From contig CAIMUX010000050.1 in the NCBI GenBank assembly GCA_903844735.1, positions 1 to 39,135 on the forward strand: DNA of 39,135 nt, given 5' to 3'. Under the pieces are notes generated by a model. The model was not told the origin of the DNA. It made no database searches and was given only the letters and a program-made list of their open reading frames with translations. The stretch's first letter is position 1; every line of letters begins with the position of its first letter. Origin of the DNA: Candidatus Eiseniibacteriota bacterium. GTDB lineage: Bacteria > Eisenbacteria > RBG-16-71-46 > CAIMUX01. Made by a program: the position numbers and the translations under genes. Below are positions 2,989 to 39,135 of the stretch, in pieces.

Positions 2989-3723
2989 CTACTTCTTGGC
3001 TGCCTTGGCAGGCTTGGCCGCCGCGGCCGGCTTGGCCCCCTTGTCGGATTTACCCCCCTTGTCGGCCTTGGCCCCCTTATCAGCCTTGTCCGTCTTGACC
3101 GCTTCGGCCGCCGGAGCCACCTCAGCCGCCGCCATCGATCCGGCCACCGCAACCTCTTCCTTCTGCTTGCCGGCCACCGAGACGACAACGCGATCGGCAG
3201 AGTCATGCACGTGGATCGAAGCGGGCACAGGAAGGTCGCGGACATGGATGGAGTCGCCGCGAATCAGGGCCGCAATGTCCACCAAGATACTCTCCGGGAT
3301 CTCCCCGGGCAGACACTCGATGTCCAGTTCGCGGAGGAAGTGCTCGACAATGCCGCCTTCCTTCACCCCCAGGGCCGTCCCTTCGAGATGGATCGGAACA
3401 CGGACCCGCACTCTCTGCGTCATCGAGATGTGCTGCAGGTCAACGTGCAGGATCTTCTGGTCGATAGGGTGGCGCTGTACCTCCTTGATGAGGACCGGCA
3501 GCGGTGCGCCCGCACGCCCGGCGATCGTCAACTCCAGGATCTGGCTGCCGGAAGAAATGTGCCGCAACATCTGCTCAAAGGTGTGCCCGTGCAGCGCGAC
3601 CGGAACACTCTCCTCCCCCGCCCCGTAAAGAATGGCCGGGATATTCTTTCCCATCCGCACGCGACGGGCGTGACCTTTGTTCCCCGCCACCCGCATCTCC
3701 GCCGAGATCTGCACCGCACCCAT
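2989..3723 (-). CDS. rplY: 50S ribosomal protein L25/general stress protein Ctc
   Basis: Long (Ctc/TL5-type) member of the L25 family, which binds 5S rRNA. The start at MGAVQISAEMRVAGNKGHARRVR gives 244 residues and follows a GGAGG/GGAAG ribosome binding site. The N-terminal RNA-binding domain includes the family segment IPAILYGAGEESVPVALHG. The TL5 C-terminal domain (VPIHLEGTALGVKEGGIVEHFLRELDIECLPGEIP) follows. The last 45 residues are a Lys/Ala/Asp/Gly-rich low-complexity tail with KADKGAK-type repeats. Genes prs, rplY and pth are adjacent on the same strand, as in many bacteria. Confidence 0.95.
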   Translation of the reverse strand: MGAVQISAEMRVAGNKGHARRVRMGKNIPAILYGAGEESVPVALHGHTFEQMLRHISSGSQILELTIAGRAGAPLPVLIKEVQRHPIDQKILHVDLQHISMTQRVRVRVPIHLEGTALGVKEGGIVEHFLRELDIECLPGEIPESILVDIAALIRGDSIHVRDLPVPASIHVHDSADRVVVSVAGKQKEEVAVAGSMAAAEVAPAAEAVKTDKADKGAKADKGGKSDKGAKPAAAAKPAKAAKK

Positions 3724-36803: not shown

Positions 36804-37808
36804 ATGACCGAAACGCTCGGGATTCTCTCGGCTCTATTGCTGGTTCCGCTGGCCGTCTCCATAGGCGATCTGCAGCCGGGTCAGGCCGCCGGACGGAATA
36901 TCATTACCTTCGCCACCAACCCCGAAGACGCGGACGGTCTGCACAACGTCGTCGTTCTCGTGGAGAGCCTCCGCGCCTTCGGCGGTCGGTTCCGCGATGC
37001 CCCGGTGTGGGTCTTCGCGTCGAAGCAGCTACTGGAAAGCGAGAAAATGATGGTGGCCAGGCTCGGGACCCTTCACGCGGAGCTTCGAAGCAGCCGGACA
37101 CCCCCGGAGGCACTCCCCTACTTTCTCGCCAGCAAGGTATTTGCCGCCGCGCAGGCGGAACAGGATGCGGCACAGACGAGCACGTTCCTAGTCTGGATGG
37201 ACACCGACACAGTGGTTCTCCAGGAGCCCGAGGAGTTCATCCTGGCGGACAGTATCAGCTTCGGCTACCGGCCGGTGATGCACCAGCGGATCGGTTCCTT
37301 ATACGCGGAGCCCTTGGACGAATTCTGGAGCCGCGTCTATGCCAAGCTCTCCGTCCCGCCGAACGCGGTCTTCCCTGTCACCACGCCGGCGGACAACAAG
37401 GTCCTGCGCGCCTACTTCAACGCCGGGCTCCTCGTGGTGCGGCCCGAGTGCGGGGTCTTTCACAGGTGGGCCAGGGATTTCACAAGCCTTTATGAGGATC
37501 CCTATTTTCAGGAGGCGTGCCGGAAGGACGAGTTCAAACGGATCTTCCTGCACCAGGTGGCGCTGGTCGGGGCCGTCTTCGGTCAGCTTTCCCCGGCGCA
37601 GATGGTCCTGCTCTCCGACCTGGTCAACGTGCCGCTGTTCTTCAAGGAGCAGTTCGGGGCACAGCGAGAGTTCGATTCGGTCGAGGGCGTGGTTACGCTG
37701 CGCCATGAGTCGTATCTGAGGAACCCGGATGCGCGTTGGCGGGAAAAGCTGAAGGGACCGGCGGATCGGGTCGCGTGGCTTAAGGAGCACTTCCCGGCGG
37801 AGAGATAA
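36804..37808 (+). CDS. GT8-like protein with DxD motif, probably exported or membrane-anchored
   Basis: 334 residues. An N-terminal hydrophobic segment (LGILSALLLVPLAVSI) resembles a signal peptide or anchor. NIITFATNPEDADGLHNVVVLVESLRAFGG starts a GT-A-like fold; VWMDTDTVVLQEPEEF (about residue 131) holds the Asp-Thr-Asp motif that binds the nucleotide-sugar metal ion; YFNAGLLVVRP matches the FNAGxxxxxP motif of GT8-type glycosyltransferases. The chosen ATG has GGAG six bases upstream; an ATG two codons earlier directly abuts that site. Donor and acceptor are unknown. Its last 29 bases overlap a truncated gene on the other strand. Confidence 0.7.
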   Translation: MTETLGILSALLLVPLAVSIGDLQPGQAAGRNIITFATNPEDADGLHNVVVLVESLRAFGGRFRDAPVWVFASKQLLESEKMMVARLGTLHAELRSSRTPPEALPYFLASKVFAAAQAEQDAAQTSTFLVWMDTDTVVLQEPEEFILADSISFGYRPVMHQRIGSLYAEPLDEFWSRVYAKLSVPPNAVFPVTTPADNKVLRAYFNAGLLVVRPECGVFHRWARDFTSLYEDPYFQEACRKDEFKRIFLHQVALVGAVFGQLSPAQMVLLSDLVNVPLFFKEQFGAQREFDSVEGVVTLRHESYLRNPDARWREKLKGPADRVAWLKEHFPAER

Positions 37809-37881
37809 AAAGGTAGCGGACGCCGTGGGCCTGCAGCCGGTCGCGGATCTCTTCTGCCTGCCGGTACTCAAACGCGCCCAT
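37780..37881 (-). pseudogene. 3'-truncated nucleotidyltransferase-like gene
   Basis: An ATG overlapping the end of the 83-residue gene by 14 bases opens a frame reading MGAFEYRQAEEIRDRLQAHG, then VRYLFI, and then leaves family pattern (SPPGSAP) to a TAA. The first 26 residues look like the start of small nucleotidyltransferases of the HGVRYLfIGG type that sit in toxin-antitoxin and abortive-infection cassettes. The catalytic GS...D.D part is absent. The break falls at the end of the GT8-like gene (37808), so a deletion or insertion joined unrelated DNA here. Confidence 0.5.
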
Positions 37882-38119
37882 AGCCCAGCCAGTCCGGAAG
37901 ATTGTCTTCACACCAGCGCCGATAGTCTGCGGTGCTATCAAAGGCTCGGAAGGGCTCGTCGTCCAGCACGGGCTTGTAGGTCTTGATGAAGGCATACCGG
38001 AACCGGGTCCGCAGGGTGCGACTGGCCGCGGCCTCGAACTCGGCCAGCCATTCCGGCGGGATGGACGCCGTTACTTCCGTACCGGCGTCGGGCGTCGGCT
38101 TGTCCGTCCCCGTGTCCAT
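37868..38119 (-). CDS. hypothetical 83-residue protein
   Basis: Reads as a compact acidic/aromatic protein: PPEWLAEFEAAASRTLRTRF, then RYAFIKTYKPVLDDEP, then FRAFDSTADYRRWCEDNLP and WLGYGRV. Strong conservation-like composition and tight packing argue for a real gene. I recall similar small proteins encoded beside nucleotidyltransferases in other bacteria, but no function is known to me. It starts nine bases after the stop of a 44-residue ORF and overlaps the truncated nucleotidyltransferase gene by 14 bases. No clear ribosome binding site, consistent with coupling. Confidence 0.65.
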   Translation of the reverse strand: MDTGTDKPTPDAGTEVTASIPPEWLAEFEAAASRTLRTRFRYAFIKTYKPVLDDEPFRAFDSTADYRRWCEDNLPDWLGYGRV

Positions 38120-38128
38120 GCCGGGAGT

Positions 38129-38263
38129 CTAGGTCTGCTGCGCGATGCGGTCCAGCGCCGTCTCGCGATCGGCCCTGCGGCCGACATGCAACCCCGGGAG
38201 TCGCGCCGACGGATGAGGCCCCGCGCGGGCTCTCCCCGATGACCCCGCCGGTTCACCCGTCAT
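38129..38263 (-). CDS. hypothetical 44-residue ORF in small-gene chain
   Basis: The ATG overlaps the stop of the 86-residue gene (ATGA) and the TAG lies nine bases before the next ATG. The second half, ARLPGLHVGRRADRETALDRIAQQT, looks like a protein C-terminus with an amphipathic helix, while the first half is Gly/Pro/Ser-rich and less convincing. It may be the shortened remnant of a longer partner gene. Its exact fit between its neighbours is the main support. Confidence 0.35.
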   Translation of the reverse strand: MTGEPAGSSGRARAGPHPSARLPGLHVGRRADRETALDRIAQQT

Positions 38264-38520
38264 CGGCCCGGCCCGCGGCCGGCGCTGCCCCGCTGCGCAC
38301 CACGGCTAACCGGGATCCCCGGCGCCTGCGACTTCACGGCCGACCGGGCCAGCCGCACGCGCTCCCTCCACGCCTTGATCTCGAGGTCATCCTTTGCCGT
38401 GGCATTGATGAAGTCGACATAGGTATCGAATTCGAAGCGGCGGGCTTCGAACTCCCGGAGGAGGTCGTGCTGGATCCGATCCTTCATTTCCACGCAATCA
38501 AAGGTCTTCCCGACCGGCAT
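38260..38520 (-). CDS. hypothetical 86-residue protein with FDCVEMK motif
   Basis: GGAGG lies seven bases before the ATG. The N-terminal KTFDCVEMKDRIQHDLLREFEARRF is of a type I recognise from small antitoxin-like proteins (FDCVEMKxxI), followed by FDTYVDFINATAKDDLEIKAWRERVRLARS. The last 25 residues are Gly/Arg-rich and may be read-through from a shorter original end. First gene of a minus-strand chain of four coupled small ORFs. An antitoxin role is only inferred. Confidence 0.6.
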   Translation of the reverse strand: MPVGKTFDCVEMKDRIQHDLLREFEARRFEFDTYVDFINATAKDDLEIKAWRERVRLARSAVKSQAPGIPVSRGAQRGSAGRGPGR

Positions 38521-39000
38521 AGGCCACCTCCAAGGGGCTCAGGATGGTCATGGTTCGCGAAACGCGATCGCGCCGCACCTTCCTCCGGCCAGGAACCATC
38601 TTCCGTCAGGAAACCCTTCCGATCAAGGCCCCGCGTCGGCCTCACCCCGCGAGGACCGGTAACCCGTTCCTCGCTCGGCGGCTACGCATGGTGAGACTGT
38701 TTGACCTTCCTCCACCGGCGACACTCGGATCCGGTGTCGGCGGACCCGCTGCTATCGCCTGCAGGGAGCACAGCCCGGGGGTCCAGACTCATCGGAGTCG
38801 GCCGCCCGCCGCCGATGCAGCCACCCGGGCGCCTCGCGGTCGCAACCCAGCCGGACGGGGCGAGATTCCCGCCGGCCTTGCGGTCTTCCCTGGTCTTCAG
38901 AGGCTACCCTCGACTCCCCGTCCCGACCGGGAGACTCTGATCACGCTGTGGGCGCGTGATTGCCTTTTCCGCTTGACCCGTGGCCATCATGTAGGATAGA
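38521..39000. other. intergenic region without recognisable gene
   Basis: 480 bases upstream of the small-gene chain. Both strands have open frames (one runs 151 codons on the plus strand from 38544), but all have Arg/Pro-rich random composition without family pattern or ribosome binding site. No tRNA, terminator or strong promoter was seen. It ends at the tandem array. Confidence 0.5.
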
Positions 39001-39135
39001 ATCTGCGTAATCTGCGTAATCTGCGTAATCTGCGTAATCTGCGTAATCTGCGTAATCTGCGTAATCTGCGTAATCTGCGTAATCTGCGTAATCTGCGTAA
39101 TCTGCGTAATCTGCGTAATCTGCGTAATCTGCGTA
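39001..39135. repeat. perfect 9-bp tandem array, at least 15 copies
   Basis: ATCTGCGTA is repeated 15 times without a single change from 39001 to the last base of the window, so the true length is unknown. On the plus strand one frame has a TAA stop in each unit, and the other frames read ICV or LRN. The AT-rich unit contrasts with the GC-rich surroundings. There are no spacers, so it is not a CRISPR array. Confidence 0.97.

Follow-up and report, generated by a model that had tools for sequence, protein, structure and literature searches.

Pairs of a small protein and a nucleotidyltransferase (NTase) are already known as a kind, MenAT1 and HEPN/MNT (HepT/MntA) among them. MenAT1 of Mycobacterium tuberculosis (Rv0078B-Rv0078A) consists of an NTase toxin of the DUF1814/AbiEii type and a 68-aa antitoxin (PMC10435456, PMC11375011). 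The antitoxin, MenA1, is short and contains no DNA-binding domain; its gene precedes menT1, and the protein acts by blocking the active site of the toxin (PMC10435456). T39 of MenT1 is the site of antitoxin-induced autophosphorylation (PMC11375011). The menA1 gene lies upstream of a menT-like ORF in 15 of 21 cases, and orphan small genes also occur (PMC10435456, PMC11375011). Motifs I and II of AbiEii have the form hG[G/S]...RxxxDhD, with an arginine four residues before the first aspartate (PMC3985639). HEPN/MNT is likewise a two-gene unit, in which a small helical protein is paired with a minimal NTase.

The window analyzed here, i.e., the whole stretch of 39,135 nt of a Candidatus Eiseniibacteriota contig, contains four small frames on the minus strand which a sequence-only reading had proposed to form one multi-part toxin-antitoxin or defence unit, complete elsewhere. 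An 86-aa ORF (38520-38260), encoding what we call the FDCVEMK protein, ends in an ATGA whose 4 nt also open a 44-aa ORF (38263-38129); a 9-nt gap separates the latter from an 83-aa ORF (38119-37868), which in turn overlaps by 14 nt an NTase frame of 33 aa that runs from an ATG at 37881 to a stop at 37780. The spacing given in that reading is exact. The layout alone is weak evidence, because 39 ORFs of at least 30 aa overlap the GC-rich 4.1-kb stretch around the four frames. The weight comes from homology, which indicates that three of the four ORFs are real and spread over two different units. A search of positions 37700-38700 retrieved no promoter or terminator matches. The features of the region are as follows:

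36807-37808, plus strand: convergent gene for a glycosyltransferase-like protein of 333 aa, outside the unit (named from sequence only)
37804-37881, minus strand: 5′ end of the NTase gene, residues 1-26 (MGAFEYRQAEEIRDRLQAHGVRYLFI), assigned by homology
37868-37881, minus strand: 14-nt overlap of the 83-aa stop and the NTase start, in a register that nearly all homologous loci share
37868-38119, minus strand: 83-aa WLGYG small protein, intact and with every invariant family residue present, assigned by homology
38129-38263, minus strand: 44-aa ORF, 73% GC, no homologue, judged spurious
38329-38520, minus strand: conserved 64-residue part of the FDCVEMK protein, 81% identical to the copy on contig C13
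38525-38557, minus strand: remnant of a PIN-domain gene, last 11 residues (TILSPLEVAYA), assigned by DNA identity to C13

Scanning one genome per species for the 83-residue protein left 42 true homologues once two Streptomyces matches had been discounted. Most belong to Planctomycetota; the other bins are Verrucomicrobiota, Acidobacteriota, Chloroflexota, Deinococcota, Abditibacteriota, Sumerlaeota and Spirochaetales. When the gene is compared with its homologue at locus L014, 27 of the 35 DNA differences fall at third codon positions. Judged from these comparisons, the 83-aa ORF is evidently a real conserved gene. Members of the family are about 75-85 residues long, helical, and end in WLGYG, and 15 residues are invariant across 41 sequences. 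The family is unmatched in Pfam, NCBIfam and PADLOC and has no significant match in PDB. Its structural model is poor (pLDDT 66), so that the fold is not reliably predicted, and no MenA1 chain was retrieved from PDB sequences with profile A2 at E values up to 10. The A1 profile also scored weakly against a large clostridial toxin chain, in its repeats, a match that we attribute to chance. On contig C106 of the same genome (39157-39240, minus strand; L006, about 3158-3241), a scrap of 28 residues from the N-terminal half of the small protein (64% identity) lies between two unrelated genes.

The sequence-only reading had suggested searching for homologues of the 86- and 83-residue proteins followed by a full NTase. 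For the 83-residue protein, such an arrangement was found in 35 of the 42 small-protein loci, where an NTase of about 155 residues comes immediately after the small gene, and likewise at L008, from the window's own phylum. The pairing also holds in the opposite direction. In NTase-seeded searches, the small protein was encoded directly upstream in 18/18 matches from 392 Planctomycetota-centred genomes and in 15/15 newly fetched matches from 297 Acidobacteriota-centred genomes. The register is a 14-nt overlap in nearly all loci, across phyla, with the ATG exactly at the overlap position in most of them; at L043 there is a 3-nt gap. Over 30 loci, small-protein and NTase distances correlate (r 0.43, matched by 0/2000 permutations), partly due to shared ancestry. 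From the pairing in both directions, the shared register and the correlated divergence, it follows that the small protein and the NTase form one conserved two-gene unit, in which the NTase is obligately paired with the small protein. The complete version anticipated by the sequence-only reading thus exists as this two-gene unit, not as a chain of four.

The occurrence of the unit is patchy: 17 of 392 and 14 of 297 genomes in two phylum-wide samples (about 4-5%). Searches for mobile copies retrieved no plasmid copy of the small protein or the NTase at comparable similarity, and the NTase was likewise not found in phages or viral contigs. Transfer between phyla cannot be proven from the NTase tree, whose resolution is too poor.

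An AlphaFold model of the NTase built from 30 sequences (pLDDT 93.4) has a DNA-polymerase-beta fold. The closest solved structures are TM1012 and MenT1, followed by LnuA and ANT(2'')-Ia. TM1012, an uncharacterized NTase of Thermotoga maritima (PDB 2fcl, 2ewr), aligns with Z 12.8 and rmsd 2.8 over 137 residues at 16-17% identity, and MenT1 with Z 12.6 and rmsd 3.6 over 138 residues at 20% identity. The values for the antibiotic adenylyltransferases LnuA and ANT(2'')-Ia, which share the fold, are Z 12.1 and Z 11.6 at 11-13% identity, and Z is 9.1 for MenT3. D42 and D44 are present in 28 of 30 NTases and D91, D93, K129 and D137 in all 30; G27 is also conserved. Two otherwise long NTases lack the first catalytic aspartate, QAAE (L017, 4248-4691) and AAAE (L050, 4134-4604) replacing QDAD.

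The AbiEii Pfam model PF08843 matched none of the 30 members at E 0.1. The NTase carries G27-K28, i.e., a lysine as the second motif-I residue, and D42-x-D44, and the residue four positions before D42 is Asp38, not arginine. K129, R134 and D137, invariant in 30/30 sequences, lie closer together than K173, R180 and D192 of AbiEii motifs III/IV. Since the Pfam model is unmatched and the motif II arginine is missing, the NTase cannot be assigned to DUF1814/AbiEii. The family is nevertheless MenT-like in its predicted fold and in its catalytic layout. A T-x-D motif is present in both enzymes (T40-x-D42 here, T39-x-D41 in MenT1), together with a conserved lysine and a downstream aspartate; going by the motif spacing, Thr40 would correspond to T39 of MenT1. 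No NTase member received an assignment from Pfam, NCBIfam or PADLOC, the defence models of PADLOC-DB 2.0.0 included. Scattered weak Pfam matches to RlaP, DUF2204 and aminoglycoside adenylyltransferase occur in single members. Among the families compared (DUF6036, DUF2204, NTP_transf_5 and RlaP), the best weak match is DUF2204 (E 5e-4).

In the window, the last frame, which had been said to start like an NTase, indeed represents a real NTase N-terminus, truncated at this locus. The stub has 72% identity over residues 1-32. Past residue 26 there are seven non-homologous codons to the stop at 37780: the NTase sequence ends at VRYLFI, and from there the frame reads the opposite strand of the convergent glycosyltransferase-like gene. 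Everything from the catalytic loop onward has been lost, the catalytic motif included. The stop codon of the glycosyltransferase-like gene falls within NTase-derived sequence. This gene looks intact, because in three relatives the homologous protein stops no more than about 4 residues away from the same position. The relatives are in the same order, and the glycosyltransferase-like protein has no match in Pfam or NCBIfam. The far end of the window (39000-39135) is a perfect 9-bp tandem repeat (AATCTGCGT, 15 copies) that runs off the contig end.

The remaining frames do not belong with the NTase. The 44-residue ORF was rejected as a gene: it gave only weak compositional matches in most GC-rich relatives, many of them inside larger ORFs. 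The 86-aa protein had been put in the chain and, like the 83-aa one, called conserved; this is valid for its first 64 residues only, and the family is small. The window ORF extends to 38260, beyond the usual end of the family, whereas the sister copy on C13 stops at codon 65. We rejected the FDCVEMK protein as a part of the NTase unit, as none of the 43 small-protein loci has it nearby (best tblastn E 0.23) and it has a partner of its own. By the refuting outcomes named in the sequence-only reading, the link between the 86- and 83-residue proteins, which are found without each other, falls, and that between the 83-residue protein and the NTase stands.

The partner is a PIN-domain gene. Intact pairs in which it directly precedes the FDCVEMK gene were found at L108, L124, L125 and L142; its Pfam PIN match is below the cut-off, and searches of Pfam, NCBIfam and PADLOC with the FDCVEMK protein gave nothing significant. 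The gene occurs without a PIN gene at five loci (L056, L057, L059, L060 and L061). Because its relatives are rare in the Planctomycetota samples (2/294 and 2/392 genomes), the pairing rests on few loci. The unit resembles PIN-domain (VapC-like) toxin-antitoxin pairs in having the FDCVEMK gene directly after the PIN gene at the four intact loci, and differs from them in that the PIN gene comes first.

The 11-residue remnant in the window is not significant by itself (E 132) and was identified through DNA identity: positions 38318-38557 are 90% identical to C13. There, 53 PIN residues (L005, 3438-3596; 66% identity, E 2e-16) are interrupted by an in-frame stop and followed by a 64-residue FDCVEMK protein (L005, 3239-3433), which makes a second decayed pair in the same genome. 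The window therefore holds the remains of two unrelated enzyme/small-protein pairs, each without the enzyme and with the partner kept.

Decay of the NTase unit at other loci takes the same direction. The small gene is intact and the NTase absent at L016, L031, L041, L045, L052 (from a divergent subgroup) and L053, and the small gene is intact and the NTase damaged at L013, L017, L025, L049, L122 and L138. This list was checked by eye on alignments; L013 and L017 were counted as damaged, and L119 and L128, whose alignments are continuous, as probably unbroken. The reverse, loss of the small gene beside an intact NTase, was not seen among the loci found; small-protein-seeded searches favour loci with the small gene kept and the NTase lost or damaged. 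At L045 (3977-4632) the solitary small gene lies between ketol-acid reductoisomerase-like and isopropylmalate-synthase-like genes and overlaps a zinc-ribbon-like ORF in the place of the NTase, all three names being taken from sequence alone.

The complete unit is most likely a MenAT1-like toxin-antitoxin pair, a function we infer by analogy. It shares with MenAT1 a small gene, for a protein without a recognizable DNA-binding domain, directly upstream of an NTase, the fold of the latter and the occurrence of orphan small genes, and the direction of decay, in which the small gene outlasts the NTase, supports this reading. It differs in that the WLGYG protein has no detectable sequence similarity to MenA1 (PDB sequence set), in the conserved 14-nt overlap and the WLGYG C-terminus, and in that the NTase escapes the AbiEii Pfam model. 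The small protein would be translated first, its expression being coupled to that of the NTase through the overlap, and would bind and block the enzyme as MenA1 does MenT1. The NTase would be a growth-inhibiting toxin that moves nucleotides onto RNA such as tRNA 3′ ends; once it is lost, the antitoxin gene could linger. Two adjacent unrelated pairs without their enzymes fit the idea that antitoxin genes outlive toxins. On balance we lean, by a little, towards the window as a site of two decayed units, the NTase unit having in its complete form a MenT1-like toxin blocked by a small antitoxin. Slightly short of an even chance is given to a new NTase toxin-antitoxin family in which a WLGYG protein of about 75 residues, without known relatives and coupled to the toxin by the overlap shared across phyla, restrains a MenT-like enzyme and solitary copies, such as the one in the window, serve as anti-addiction genes. 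Several observations count against the toxin-antitoxin reading: the small protein is more conserved than many antitoxins and has no recognizable DNA-binding domain, LnuA and ANT(2'')-Ia come nearly as near to the NTase in structure as MenT1 does, the enzymes of L017 and L050 lack the first catalytic aspartate, and the plasmid and phage searches found no copies.

A structure nearly as similar to LnuA and ANT(2'') is also what would be expected if the NTase were a housekeeping or resistance enzyme (LnuA/ANT-like NMP transfer or RNA end repair) with the small protein as an obligate subunit or chaperone, and both the weak Pfam similarities of single members and the high conservation of the small protein point the same way. 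Nevertheless, a small upstream gene is not a normal companion of resistance NTases, and LnuA and ANT(2'')-Ia are not known to be joined to a small protein in a two-gene unit. The patchy distribution and the six loci that keep the small gene without an adjacent NTase likewise speak against such an enzyme, which we consider unlikely.

Less probable still is a HEPN/MNT-like arrangement with reversed roles, in which the small protein would be the effector and the NTase would silence it by nucleotidylating, e.g., the invariant Tyr48 or Tyr42. A small helical protein and a minimal NTase do share one operon, and the invariant R39 and Y48, within R-x6-[KRH]-x-Y, recall RX4HXY, the RNase motif of HepT. 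Nucleotidylation of a partner by the NTase has its basis in the chemistry of MntA/HepT (PMC7641770). The small protein is, however, not a recognizable HEPN protein: the position of the catalytic histidine is unconserved (His in only 3/41 sequences), HEPN domains are usually longer than its roughly 75-85 residues, and Pfam, NCBIfam and PADLOC gave no match to HEPN. In addition, solitary intact small genes would kill if they encoded the toxin, and, as the toxin, the NTase agrees with both the gene order and the pattern of loss. The single four-part unit of the sequence-only reading, which the tight spacing of the four frames would suit, can practically be discounted within the collections searched, given an FDCVEMK gene absent from all homologous loci and bound to its own PIN partner and a 44-residue ORF without relatives.

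With the MenAT1-like reading, two conserved families without assignment in Pfam, NCBIfam or PADLOC that pair obligately in several, mostly environmental, phyla present a clear, testable candidate for an NTase toxin-antitoxin family. No earlier report of either protein family was found in the open (non-subscription) papers searched.

A search of the window's genome for a close intact NTase retrieved only five more distant relatives, on contigs C142, C79, C125, C133 and C47 (L100-L104), with 28-36% identity. The first NTase member is below the Pfam curated cut-off, and the distant relatives on C142 and C79 pass that of DUF6036. Four of the five adjoin an ORF of roughly 53-65 residues, a hint that pairs of a small protein and an NTase may form a wider class.
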